Assembly (NCBI RefSeq): GCF_002909235.1
Contig: NZ_PHQQ01000013.1
Location: 1 to 64,000 of the forward strand
DNA length: 64,000 nt
Reading direction: 5' to 3'
DNA from: Arenibacter catalasegens
Lineage (GTDB): Bacteria > Bacteroidota > Bacteroidia > Flavobacteriales > Flavobacteriaceae
Of the stretch, positions 9,190 to 12,394 are shown in pieces. Within the stretch, counting starts at the first letter, position 1. Each line of letters begins with the position of its first letter. The translations under genes were made by a program, and so were the position numbers. The notes under the pieces were generated by a model that was not told where the DNA came from, did not search any database, and worked only from the letters and a program-made list of their open reading frames with translations.

Positions 9190-9939
9190 ATGATCCAACA
9201 TATACTGAGCGGTATTAAAGCCTATCTGGGCACCTTTAAAATAATTTCCCAATTGGGGCTTTGGCACTATTTTTGGATTCCAATATTGATCAGTATTACA
9301 ATAGCGACCATGATTTTCACCTCTGCCTATGGACTCGCTGACAACGTTGGCGGGTTTCTTTCTCAATGGTGGACTTGGGACTGGGGAAGACCAACGGTAA
9401 TCCTAATTAGCGATATCTTTGGCGGACTTTTAATTATTGTTTTGGGCTTTATTCTATACAAGCATATTGTAATGGCTCTCTCAGCTCCCTTTATGAGCCC
9501 AGTTTCTGAAAAAATAGAAGCCCACCTTTTAGGAAACCAAGCAGAAAACCATCGAGATACCACTTTCGGAGAACAACTATGGCGGGGAATCCGTATCAAC
9601 CTAAGAAACCTGGTGATGGAAATTTTGTTGACCATTCCCGTTTTATTATTCGGTTTAATTCCCGTTATAGGTCTGGCTTCAACTGTTCTGCTATTTCTAA
9701 TCCAAGCCTATTACGCCGGTTTTGGAAATATGGACTATACCTTGGAGCGTCATTTTAAGTATAGCGAAAGTTTAAGCTTTGTACGAAAGAACAAAGGCAT
9801 TGCCATAGGCAACGGAATTGTCTTTATGTTCTTTCTTTTTATTCCGGTAATTGGTATAATCTTAGTGCTACCACTATCGGTTACAGCGGCAACCATGAAA
9901 ACGGTGGAACTATTGAAAGCGGAAAAAGAATTTATTTGA
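9190..9939 (+). CDS. EI24/CysZ-like integral membrane protein
   Basis: The 249-residue protein is hydrophobic, with about four to six membrane segments, for example PILISITIATMIFTSAYGLA, LLIIVLGFILYKHIVMALSA, LLTIPVLLFGLIPVIGLAS and a C-terminal VFMFFLFIPVIGIILVLPL. The pattern, with APFMSPVSEKIE after the second segment, fits the EI24 domain family that includes the sulfate transporter CysZ. The transported or modified substrate here is unknown. It sits between hemE and hemF, so a link to tetrapyrrole or sulfur metabolism is possible but unproven. Its TGA stop (9937-9939) overlaps the first bases of a REP-like half palindrome. Confidence 0.82.
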   Translation: MIQHILSGIKAYLGTFKIISQLGLWHYFWIPILISITIATMIFTSAYGLADNVGGFLSQWWTWDWGRPTVILISDIFGGLLIIVLGFILYKHIVMALSAPFMSPVSEKIEAHLLGNQAENHRDTTFGEQLWRGIRINLRNLVMEILLTIPVLLFGLIPVIGLASTVLLFLIQAYYAGFGNMDYTLERHFKYSESLSFVRKNKGIAIGNGIVFMFFLFIPVIGIILVLPLSVTAATMKTVELLKAEKEFI

Positions 9940-10180
9940 CCTGCAAGGTTGAGTGGCTGGCAGGACCTGCAAGGTTTCAAAAACCCCGGACCTACAAGGT
10001 TTTCAAAAACCTTGTAGGTCTAAAAATATGAAGCATAAAGAGCCAATGGCCGATAGCAAAGGAACAACAAAACCTGCAAGGTCGCAAAGACCTTGCAGGT
10101 TGAGAACAGTTATCCCAAAGACCTCGCAGCTTAGGTAATCTGCAACAAGGACCTGCAAGGTTTCCTAAACCTTGTAGGTC
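9938..10180. repeat. left REP-like cluster
   Basis: A half site lies at 9938-9950 and a unit with truncated right arm at 9964-9985. Three full palindromes follow at 9989-10020 (perfect 15-bp arms, 2-nt loop), 10071-10101 (perfect 13-bp arms) and 10150-10180 (one G-T mismatch). Spacers are 50 and 48 bp. The stretch 9989-10184 is a diverged copy of 10765-10957, and both share the same 25 bp at 10043-10067 and 10818-10842. Confidence 0.85.
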
Positions 10181-10196
10181 TGAAACAAGAAAAAAA

Positions 10197-10766
10197 ATGA
10201 AACTCGAAAAACTCGAAAAGGATCACTACTATCATATTTACAACCGGGGAATAAACGGTGGCCTAATATTTAAATCCAACGAAAACAAAAGCTACTTTCT
10301 AAAGTTGATTCATAAGTATTTGTCCAACAAAGTTTCCATTCTTGCATATTGTTTAATGGACAGCCATTACCATATGGCAATTCAGGTTATTGAAGAAGAA
10401 AAATTAGTTACCCAATCATTTTCAAATCTTTTCAATGCCTATGCCAAAGCATTCAATAAAATGCACAATAGAACGGGTAGTCTTTTTGAAAAACATTTTA
10501 GAAGGATTAAAATTGGTGACACTAATTATTTGAGGAACCTGATAATCTACATCAATACGAACCCGGAAAGTCATGGAGTCACCGAAGATTATAAAACATA
10601 CAAATATTCATCTTATCAGACCACTATTTCTATTCAGAACAGTCCCGATTCAGTGCCAATAACAAAGGAAGAGGTAATAAATCTTTTTGATGATCTAGGA
10701 AATTTTGAATATTTGCATGAGCAAAAAAGAAACTTAGGTCTTGACAATCTGAACTGGGATTCATGA
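10197..10766 (+). CDS. REP-associated tyrosine transposase (RAYT, Y1 HUH family)
   Basis: This 189-residue protein belongs to the IS200/IS605-like transposase clan. The N-terminal HYYHIYNRG (residues 10-18) is the RAYT opening motif. The HUH metal-binding histidines are H57 and H59 in LMDSHYHMAI. FEKHFRRIKI follows at 97-106, and the expected catalytic tyrosine is Y118 in IIYINTNP. RAYTs recognise REP hairpins as single strands and cut and rejoin them; they are usually single-copy and domesticated. The length is typical and the gene looks intact. It is flanked on both sides by REP-like hairpins, the diagnostic context. The TGA stop overlaps the first bases of the following palindrome. No separate promoter box is evident. 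Confidence 0.92.
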   Translation: MKLEKLEKDHYYHIYNRGINGGLIFKSNENKSYFLKLIHKYLSNKVSILAYCLMDSHYHMAIQVIEEEKLVTQSFSNLFNAYAKAFNKMHNRTGSLFEKHFRRIKIGDTNYLRNLIIYINTNPESHGVTEDYKTYKYSSYQTTISIQNSPDSVPITKEEVINLFDDLGNFEYLHEQKRNLGLDNLNWDS

Positions 10767-11285
10767 CCTGCAAGGTTTCAAAAACCTTGTAGGTCTGAAA
10801 ACATGAAGCATAATGAACCAATGGCCGATAGCAAAGGAACAAAAACCTACAAGGTCATAAAGACCTTGCAGGTTCAAAAGCGCAGCCCCAAAGACATCGC
10901 CGCTTAGATAATCGGCATCAAGGACCTGCAAGGTTTCAAAAACCTTGTAGGTCTGAAAAAGTGAATATGAAAAGAAATTGAAGTTTGACTCGAATGAAAG
11001 AAACCTACAAGGTCATAAAGACCTTGCAGGTTAAGTAGTCGCAAAGATTCGACCGCAAAATCAGGACTTGCAAAATCCCGAAACCCAAGACCTGCAAGGT
11101 TTCAAAAACCTTGTAGGTCAGAAAAAGTGAATATGAAAAGAAATTGAAGTTTGACTCGAATGAAAGAAACCTACAAGGTCTCAAAGACCTTGCAGGTTAA
11201 GTAGTCGCAAAGATTCGACCCGAAAATCAGGACTTGCAAAATCCCGAAACCCAAGACCTGCAAGGTTTCAAAAACCTTGTAGGTC
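10765..11285. repeat. right REP-like cluster, seven alternating palindromes
   Basis: Seven 31-bp imperfect palindromes occur in the order A-B-A-B-A-B-A, with spacers of 48, 48, 48, 56, 48 and 56 bp. In type A a G sits opposite T in the stem on the plus strand. In type B the same mismatch appears as A opposite C, so the G-T pair is on the minus strand. The last two spacer-repeat pairs (11120-11285) are a tandem copy of 10954-11119 with period 166 bp. The array ends 19 bp before hemF. Confidence 0.9.
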
Positions 11286-11304: not shown

Positions 11305-12210
11305 ATGAAAGATAAATTCTACGCATACATTCAACATTTACAGGATAGGATCACTGCTAAATTAGAAGCCGTAGACGGTGAAGCCAAGTTTAGGGAAGAC
11401 TTATGGGAACGACCAGAAGGCGGCGGTGGCCGATCCAGGGTGATAGAAAATGGAGCTGTTTTTGAAAAAGGCGGTGTAAATATTTCAGCTGTTCATGGAG
11501 CCTTACCAAAAAGCATGCAAAATTATTTTGGCGTTAAGGATGCCGATTTTTTTGCCTGTGGACTCAGTCTAGTTATACACCCAAAAAACCCTATGGTTCC
11601 TACCGTACATGCCAATTGGCGCTATTTTGAAATGTACGATAAAGAAGGTAAATTAGTAGACCAATGGTTTGGTGGAGGACAGGACCTAACTCCCTACTAT
11701 CTATTTGACGAGGATGCTAAACACTTTCATACAATTTGCAAAAATGCGTGCGACAAGCATAATCCAGAATTTTACAGTACCTACAAGGCAAAGTGCGACG
11801 ATTATTTCTGGAATTCCCATAGGAACGAAGCAAGAGGCATCGGAGGATTGTTTTACGACTACTGCAAAGCCACTGACAACATGACCATGGAAGATTGGTA
11901 CAATTTTGAATCCGAGGTGGGTGATAGTTTCCTCGACGCCTATACCCCCATTGTAGAGAAACGAAAAGACTTGCCTTATTCGAAAGAACAGCGAGATTGG
12001 CAAGAAATTCGTAGAGGACGTTATGTGGAATTTAACCTTGTGCATGACAAGGGTACACTTTTTGGCTTAAAGACCAATGGCCGAATAGAAAGCATATTAA
12101 TGAGCCTTCCTCCCCATGTACAATGGGTATATGACCATCACCCAGAAAAAGGAAGTGAAGAAGAACGTTTATTGAAAGTACTCACCAAGCCCAAAGAGTG
12201 GGTATCGTAA
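11305..12210 (+). CDS. hemF: oxygen-dependent coproporphyrinogen III oxidase
   Basis: HemF uses O2 to decarboxylate coproporphyrinogen III to protoporphyrinogen IX. The 301-residue protein is full length and carries the family signatures GGGGRSRVIENGAVFEKGGVN, VHANWRYFE, WFGGGQDLTPYYL and RGIGGLFYDY, plus the C-terminal RRGRYVEFNLVHDKGT. It follows the REP island directly, so its message probably carries a REP hairpin at its 5' end if transcription comes from hemE or the EI24 gene. No clear -7 box is seen in the 19 bp between repeat and start codon. Confidence 0.97.
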   Translation: MKDKFYAYIQHLQDRITAKLEAVDGEAKFREDLWERPEGGGGRSRVIENGAVFEKGGVNISAVHGALPKSMQNYFGVKDADFFACGLSLVIHPKNPMVPTVHANWRYFEMYDKEGKLVDQWFGGGQDLTPYYLFDEDAKHFHTICKNACDKHNPEFYSTYKAKCDDYFWNSHRNEARGIGGLFYDYCKATDNMTMEDWYNFESEVGDSFLDAYTPIVEKRKDLPYSKEQRDWQEIRRGRYVEFNLVHDKGTLFGLKTNGRIESILMSLPPHVQWVYDHHPEKGSEEERLLKVLTKPKEWVS

Positions 12211-12226
12211 ACCTAAACAGTGGATT

Positions 12227-12394
12227 ATGAGTAAAAAAGGCAAAGAAAAAAATACCGCCAACAAGGCAAAACATACCAAGCTTCTTAATCGAAAGAAAAA
12301 CAAGCTTAAGAAAGAGAAAGAAACCCGAAAGGAGCGACTTAAAGCGATTCAAACACAACATCGGGAAAAGGGCAATAAAGAGGAAACGAATTAG
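12227..12394 (+). CDS. 55-residue lysine-rich basic protein
   Basis: This small open frame (MSKKGKEKNT ... GNKEETN) starts 16 bp after the hemF stop on the same strand and ends 56 bp before ychJ. About a third of the residues are Lys or Arg, with no cysteine, no hydrophobic segment and a predicted charged helix in the middle. I do not recognise a family. The composition is compatible with RNA or ribosome binding, which is only a guess. Position inside an operon-like row argues that it is a real gene. Confidence 0.6.
   Translation: MSKKGKEKNTANKAKHTKLLNRKKNKLKKEKETRKERLKAIQTQHREKGNKEETN

Follow-up and report, generated by a model that had tools for sequence, protein, structure and literature searches.

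What is a lone transposase gene, set in a dense array of palindromes, doing inside a heme gene cluster? The question is raised by a 64,000-nucleotide stretch of Arenibacter catalasegens DNA (contig NZ_PHQQ01000013.1, positions 1 to 64,000; hereafter the window), in which the gap between an EI24-like membrane protein gene and hemF is filled by the gene for a 189-aa REP (repetitive extragenic palindrome)-associated tyrosine transposase (RAYT), 10 full palindromes and 2 half-copies. We think that this is probably a REPtron: an IS200-like RAYT, now domesticated, together with hairpin palindromes of its own, resident in the hem cluster and, in one branch of relatives, fused to HemF.

A transposase gene amid its palindromes

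An earlier note on this DNA had described a RAYT among ten full and two partial palindromes of one consensus, filling the whole gap. The sequence bears this out: nine of the palindromes are exact copies of ACCTRCAAGGT-N7-ACCTTGYAGGT, a pattern with no match (at up to three mismatches) in 100 dinucleotide shuffles of the window. The gap and its two flanking genes contain the following features, given with window coordinates, strand and, in brackets, the basis of each.

9190–9939, + strand: EI24/CysZ-like membrane protein gene, upstream of the RAYT (open reading frame, ORF; EI24 is the earlier note's name)
9938–9950, no strand: half palindrome GACCTGCAAGGTT (repeat family D4)
9964–9976, no strand: half palindrome (repeat family D4)
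9989–10020, no strand: full palindrome with 8-nt loop, arms symmetric (sequence and pattern search)
10071–10101, no strand: full palindrome, arms symmetric (pattern search)
10150–10180, + strand: full palindrome, G.T wobble orientation + (pattern search)
10197–10766, + strand: RAYT, 189 aa, with H57, H59, Y118 and N122 (ORF, motifs, predicted fold)
10765–10795, + strand: full palindrome, orientation + (pattern search)
10844–10874, - strand: full palindrome, orientation - (pattern search)
10923–10953, + strand: full palindrome, orientation +, opening a 166-bp tandem unit (pattern search)
11002–11032, - strand: full palindrome, orientation - (pattern search)
11089–11119, + strand: full palindrome, orientation + (pattern search)
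11168–11198, - strand: full palindrome, orientation - (pattern search)
11255–11285, + strand: full palindrome, orientation +, in the hemF leader, core at -47 to -21 from the start codon (pattern search)
11305–12210, + strand: hemF, oxygen-dependent coproporphyrinogen oxidase, with its own ATG (ORF, profile match)

Most of the gap palindromes can be oriented by a G.T wobble at stem pair 4 of the 9-bp core. From 10765 to 11285 successive copies face opposite ways and are spaced 79, 79, 79, 87, 79 and 87 bp, which is the paired and alternating arrangement of bacterial interspersed mosaic elements (BIMEs) and of REPINs (REP doublets forming hairpins). The 166-bp unit is tandemly duplicated (10923–11088 and 11089–11254, 97% identity), and about 185 bp on the 5' side of the RAYT gene (10001–10185) recur on its 3' side (10776–10958, 85–93% identity). 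Palindromes also reach into genes: the TGA stop of the EI24-like gene (9937–9939) overlaps the start of the first half-palindrome, and that of the RAYT overlaps the first bases of the palindrome at 10765–10795. The palindrome itself is free of stop codons in two frames. For the EI24-like gene, the nearest NCBIfam model was CysZ, at 77 bits and under its 140-bit cut-off.

The 189-aa protein is a RAYT with palindromes of its own, as judged by its residues, its fold and the co-varying palindromes at related RAYTs. Residues H57, H59, Y118, N122 and P123, which make up the HuH and Y---NP motifs, are all present. An AlphaFold2 model (predicted local distance difference test, pLDDT, 91.4) had as its top match in the PDB 4er8, the E. 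coli RAYT with a REP hairpin (E 4.8e-8; template modelling (TM) scores 0.59/0.67), in agreement with the identity first proposed; a PDB search with the sequence gave no match, and no helix-turn-helix (HTH) domain was matched at E≤1. The RAYT is single-copy, with one match in its own genome at E≤1e-5, and the other Y1 proteins of the genome (three strong matches, one broken) score as IS200-like.

A profile built from hem-linked RAYTs was run against contigs of 84,980 species, and we took the best 80 of at least 518 confirmed relatives, a set that overlaps the family sample described below. In 73/80 loci upstream of the RAYT and in 68/80 downstream of it, the best flanking hairpin exceeded the 99th percentile of 405 mononucleotide shuffles. 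A form with 9-nt arms was fitted by 131/160 hairpins, in which 1149 of 1179 arm cells are paired; that is, the arms co-vary, with GCAAG, GTCAG and CACAG among the variants. The arm class was the same upstream and downstream in 50 of the 54 loci in which both sides fit (counting 'other' as a class). The two palindromes of a locus share a 7-mer in 87% of cases versus 80% by permutation (maximum 86%), a weak test because one arm class dominates. One genome bearing the fusion described below has a second, non-hem RAYT (L072, G134:C23) with its own palindrome class, CCTCACAGG/CCTGTGAGG, unlike the class of the hem locus.

Cognate palindromes are found both beside the RAYT and elsewhere in the genome, as is characteristic of RAYT/TnpAREP genes. 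At up to three mismatches, the whole genome holds 20 palindromes, versus 0 for a reversed-pattern control; 9 lie inside the gap and 11 elsewhere, so the absence of outside copies, which the earlier note had named as fatal to its reading, is not the case. The tenth gap palindrome, with its longer loop, falls outside the main pattern and was found with another. A second cluster lies away from the hem locus (L023, G000:C7 94439–97960) and consists of TCCTGCAAGG...CCTTGTAGGA variants, several with GTAG or GCAG directly 5' of the stem; it adjoins MecI/BlaR1-like ORFs (labels by eye). At G000:C56 194374 (L026) a palindrome, with half-copies adjoining, stands directly 5' of a biotin-synthase-like ORF (label by eye). 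Relatives also have clustered copies on further contigs (G199:C8, G206:C24, G209:C9 and G213:C66).

RAYTs beside hemF, and fused to it, in the Flavobacteriaceae

We sampled 199 genomes of the family, one per genus. A RAYT homologue was found in 29 and no match in 170; hemF was found in 169. In 14 of the 29 the RAYT resides in the hem cluster, immediately before hemF in 12, whereas the other 15 have no hem gene near their best RAYT locus (15/15, up to 1.5 kb a side). At least two palindromes were present in 11/14 hem-linked genomes, 1/15 of those with other RAYTs only and 6/170 of those without a RAYT, by a main pattern that misses the GTCAGG and CACAGG arm classes used by some hem-linked genomes. 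Together with the fold and the cognate palindromes at related RAYTs, these counts support the functional pairing of RAYT and repeats that had been proposed. The description of a complete set in a flavobacterial hem operon was also correct, but other strains have such a set too: many Flavobacteriaceae carry it, often as an in-frame RAYT–HemF fusion, something that the window by itself does not reveal. In the wider order, a RAYT was matched in 44/246 genomes. Among the 30 loci read, hem genes adjoin the RAYT in 8, all within the Flavobacteriaceae, and in 0/14 outside the family. At the 22 loci without adjoining hem genes, the stretch read includes a palindrome of the same form in 14, in most cases with arms of another sequence.

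Placement within the cluster varies. In G007 (L066) a RAYT with flanking palindromes sits between hemD and hemE, as it does in Mesonia and Salegentibacter records, and in G127 (L061) one follows hemE, with hemF 2.7 kb further on. The placements in G127 and G007 may reflect either movement within the hem cluster or a change of gene order. A higher rate of pseudogenes among non-hem RAYTs was considered and not used, the numbers being few and biased.

Among the 80 loci, hemF lies downstream of the RAYT in 68: as a separate gene in 41 (gap 60–2387 nt) and in one open frame with the RAYT in 27. In the family sample the frame is shared in 9/14 hem-linked genera, and 6 of these 9 have a codon other than ATG at the start of HemF. 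The hemF product of A. catalasegens corresponds to the C-terminal domain of a RAYT fusion in many relatives. Among the 80 loci, HemF codon 1 is ATG in 41/41 unfused and 10/27 fused cases (Fisher p 1.9e-9), and in 15/27 fused loci it is none of ATG, GTG or TTG; cultured species that lack a HemF start codon occur in Gelidibacter and Flavivirga, and Luteirhabdus pelagi has CTC at this position. Three fused genomes (G153, G157 and G074) have no in-frame ATG, GTG or TTG from RAYT residue 165 to HemF+25. The fused species include cultured Flavivirga, Polaribacter, Hanstruepera, Gelidibacter, Aestuariivivens, Aequorivita, Winogradskyella and Luteirhabdus; assembly error is therefore unlikely.

Pfam Y1_Tnp and Coprogen_oxidas were matched in 5/5 fused proteins tried (Y1_Tnp above its cut-off in 3/5, best 27.5 bits), H57, H59 and Y118 are intact whether the hem-linked locus is fused (27/27) or unfused (41/41), and fused HemF deviates at 0–3 of 142 positions that are invariant in 42 unfused HemF sequences. 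The RAYT is under purifying selection, fused forms included: the ratio of nonsynonymous to synonymous substitution (dN/dS) of its domain was 0.066–0.135 in eight hand-chosen fused pairs, several with dS >1, and among eight Arenibacter-group sequences the RAYT, the EI24-like gene and HemF had values of 0.13, 0.10 and 0.04, respectively. A predicted fusion model, with 25 of the 27 fused sequences in the alignment, gave two domains (pLDDT 74.7, predicted TM score 0.51); the linker, residues 176–195, is of low confidence, and parts of the HemF half are also poor.

The linkers extend 9–106 codons past the aligned RAYT. All 27 are in frame and stop-free, with a summed log10 probability of chance freedom from stops of -23.3 (mononucleotide shuffles, relatedness ignored). 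A translated-palindrome motif is present in 20/27, and DNA palindromicity exceeds that of synonymous recoding (200 recodings each) at p≤0.01 in 19/27 and p≤0.05 in 21/27. Here a repeat family doubles as a linker between protein domains, and the palindrome is retained at the DNA level. In L063 (G036) and L068 (G168) the linkers carry AAC/AAT codon runs (poly-Asn), a possible in-frame, length-changing microsatellite.

Within the Arenibacter group, the RAYTs of the nearest named relatives are 81–93% identical to ours. A RAYT was found in 9/18 genus genomes and hemF in 18/18. Comparison of the hemE–hemF gap in related strains, which the earlier note had suggested, showed the RAYT before hemF on the same contig in 8 of the 9 RAYT-bearing members and palindromes without a RAYT match in several others. 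In the ninth bearer, G202, EI24–RAYT and hemF are on two different contigs, and the stretch retrieved from each ends early; we read them as one locus broken in assembly. Among members without a RAYT, the gap holds four palindromes in G205, two in G204 (by a loose pattern), one each in G214, G201 and G200, one decayed palindrome in G207, and none in G208 and G212; in G215 a run of N before hemF makes the gap unreadable and may hide a RAYT. Genome-wide, at up to one mismatch, there are 5–30 palindromes with a RAYT and 0–17 without (Mann-Whitney p 0.003, relatedness ignored), and the metF–metH gap has a palindrome in 9/9 RAYT-bearing versus 2/9 RAYT-less genomes. The existence of relatives with repeats and no RAYT, the other outcome named beforehand as contrary, is literally the case, since 8/9 RAYT-less members carry 1–17 copies (with the proviso for G215). 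Relics of RAYT loss, for example by recombination between direct repeats, fit these cases best.

One further ORF in the window lies beyond this system. Between hemF and a SEC-C-like gene (label by eye), positions 12227–12394 (+) encode a lysine-rich 55-aa product (MSKKGKEKNTANKAKHTKLLNRKK...), too short to have passed the length threshold of the ORF scan; a near-copy is legible in G202.

Descent of the locus and competing explanations

The RAYT tree sets 81 rows (the window plus the 80 loci, 12 of which have no hemF found downstream) apart from 11 chosen non-hem RAYTs, with SH-aLRT support of 98. The fused RAYTs all belong to one half, which also includes Arenibacter (39 rows; support 90, not starred). 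The fused or separate state requires at least four changes on this tree and three on the HemE tree, so Arenibacter may have divided a former fusion or may always have had two genes. For the 67 loci with full HemE and HemF, RAYT distances follow those of HemF (r 0.75) and HemE (r 0.64), a fit reached in 0/2000 permutations.

We propose that an ancestor within the Flavobacteriaceae gained a RAYT in the heme gene cluster, with later descent that would have been mostly, though not strictly, vertical. By analogy with the E. coli enzyme, the palindromes, folded as single-stranded hairpins, are the likeliest substrate of the RAYT, which would bind them and use Tyr118 for cutting and rejoining; such processing would amplify palindromes in place and occasionally seed copies elsewhere. 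Being read within the hem cluster would tie the RAYT to the heme genes. In one large branch the RAYT frame continues, by way of the downstream palindrome (open in that frame, with a translation of roughly DLQGFENLAG), into hemF; HemF there forms the C-terminal domain of a shared RAYT–HemF frame, and many species have lost its own start codon. A nonsense or frameshift mutation in a fused RAYT would also remove HemF, and the transposase would therefore be kept in place. In Arenibacter the RAYT and hemF are separate genes, and palindromes have multiplied into the hemF leader.

On balance we favor a further step, that about ten flavobacterial genera make HemF as the C-terminal half of a RAYT–HemF chimera, with the palindrome as linker and the transposase locked in. 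The chimera would have arisen because the transposase's palindrome is an open frame and hence a ready-made linker. Going by codon 1, it would be the sole form of HemF in eight named genera that have at least one member without ATG, GTG or TTG there. In its boldest form this reading would couple single-strand DNA processing to oxygen-dependent heme synthesis.

A number of observations weigh against this account. At the level of the protein, the HuH motif of the RAYT is SHYH and not NHxH (Ser for Asn/Asp before the first His), the score against the NCBIfam REP-transposase model NF047646 is 41.1 bits (cut-off 80) and that against Pfam Y1_Tnp is 21 bits (cut-off 23), and an unrelated model, Vac14_Fig4_bd, scores 21.4 bits, likewise under its cut-off. 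As for the repeats, they are few (about 20 in this genome), GTRG lies within 9 nt of either foot in 10/252 palindromes (4%; control 5.3%), no palindromes were found by the main pattern in the hem-linked genomes G074 and G135, a strong palindrome is missing upstream in 5/27 fused loci and downstream in 5/27, and repeats occur without a RAYT both in the genus and in the wider family. Hem linkage is patchy (14/199 genera), and of the 12 loci without hemF downstream, 7 show no hem gene in the stretch; of the others, the contig of L114 ends after hemC–E, L141 and L178 have hemC–E upstream, and L122 and L148 have hemB near, L148 with a hemF match upstream of the RAYT. The 80 loci were drawn with a profile built on hem-linked RAYTs, and neither locus nor genome counts are phylogenetically independent. 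Strictly vertical descent is also at odds with Salegentibacter- and Mesonia-named records that are nearly identical in RAYT and HemE, and with the RAYT tree, which divides each of the genera Winogradskyella, Polaribacter and Flavivirga; the HemE tree unites three of four Winogradskyella (L168, L170 and L172). For the chimera and the locking-in of the RAYT, the 10 fused loci that keep ATG could start HemF alone, and HemN was present in 10/10 genomes tried; HemF is therefore not the sole coproporphyrinogen oxidase, and residence or fusion would protect the RAYT at most conditionally, for example in aerobic growth.

Among the alternatives, the locus could be a neutral hitchhiker: a REP unit that landed once before hemF, with fusions arising by chance readthrough of a palindrome that is open in two frames and serving no function, and HemF merely tolerating an N-terminal tail. 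The RAYT does seem dispensable, because no match was found in 9/18 genus and 170/199 family genomes. However, purifying selection acts on the RAYT even when fused, its catalytic residues are intact in 68/68 hem-linked loci, and 27 linkers without a single frame break or stop are hard to attribute to chance; we regard this explanation as fairly unlikely.

We also doubt that the locus is chiefly a regulatory module, in which the leader palindrome, with or without bound RAYT, sets hemF translation or mRNA stability and the RAYT is kept as a heme-operon regulator. The earlier note had suggested that repeats in the hemF leader could affect expression. A regulatory module would suit the position of a palindrome ending about 19–47 nt before hemF in 14/17 readable genus members, 5 of them RAYT-less, the transcription of the RAYT in the direction of the operon, and the palindromicity of translated linkers beyond synonymous recoding in most loci. 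Yet hemF is present where the leader palindrome is absent (G208 and G212) or decayed (G207), unrelated genes have palindromes too, for instance in the metF–metH gap, and in fused species the palindrome is coding and not leader. None of the hairpins in the EI24–hemF gap is followed by a terminator-like T tail on the + strand; hairpins with a T-rich stretch occur only on the - strand, against transcription (6 versus 1.6 in shuffles). An Rfam scan gave five weak matches, every one under its gathering score, and the Bacteroidetes-type promoter pattern is absent from the gap, with 5 matches in the window versus 3.85 by chance. An ordinary IS200/IS605 insertion sequence next to hemF is very improbable: the Y1-transposase fold and stronger Y1_Tnp matches elsewhere in the genome, taken as IS200-type, would suit it, but the RAYT has no near-identical copies at other sites of its own genome, recurs in the same place across genera in congruence with the hem genes, and has several alternating palindromes on either side.

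The domesticated, hem-resident RAYT remains our preferred reading, and it bears on the role of RAYTs and on how bacterial genomes keep domesticated transposases for so long. Hem-linked RAYTs amount to a natural experiment, in which one RAYT clade in one neighbourhood is found separate, fused with the enzyme's start lost, or gone with the palindromes remaining. Among the papers listed in searches of PubMed Central, judged from title and abstract opening, we found no report of RAYT linkage or fusion to hemF or coproporphyrinogen oxidase; if the chimera reading is true, a transposase locked into a metabolic gene would be a form of domestication without a description found there. According to Quentin et al. 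2018 (PMC6006769), unexpectedly long proteins were removed as gene fusions or annotation errors, and a survey that discards such proteins would miss a RAYT–HemF fusion.

Comparison with known systems

With the TnpA of IS200/IS605 the window RAYT shares the catalytic fold; it differs in its palindrome arrays, its recurring hem-cluster residence and the lack of a multiplied insertion sequence copy.

Among the TnpAY1 subclasses, as described by Quentin et al. 2018 (PMC6006769), subclass 2.6 (Bertels group 5) resembles our system in comprising Bacteroidetes RAYTs with flanking atypical secondary structures and copies elsewhere. We rejected assignment to it on the HuH–Tyr spacing, which in subclass 2.6 is about 82 residues (with a 21-aa insertion) and in the window RAYT about 58; the motifs also differ, being NH[FY]H / F[EQ] / Y[IV]HxNP here and NH[LIV]H / WQ / YIH[QN]NP there. 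The spacing fits the usual 58–67 range, as in subclass 2.1, whose second motif line (taken as 2.1.2) reads NH[YF]H, FQ and Y[IV]HLNP. By sequence, the core motifs appear nearest to this line. Subclass 2.1 proteins have a median of 238 aa, often a C-terminal HTH, and are reported by those authors without REP-like sequences; the window RAYT is shorter, gave no HTH match and has palindromes.

The system also compares closely with the E. coli RAYT/TnpAREP and its REP/BIME repeats (PDB 4er8), which have in common with our system an HUH-Tyr fold, a single gene amid alternating cognate palindromes, and dispersed copies. REPs usually number >100 per genome according to one account (PMC2817692), compared with about 20 here. 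The palindromes here are without the unpaired GT[AG]G at the 5' foot that marks a canonical REP, and recognition must therefore differ from that of the E. coli RAYT. Moreover, the RAYT described here is resident in a hem cluster and, in relatives, is fused to HemF.

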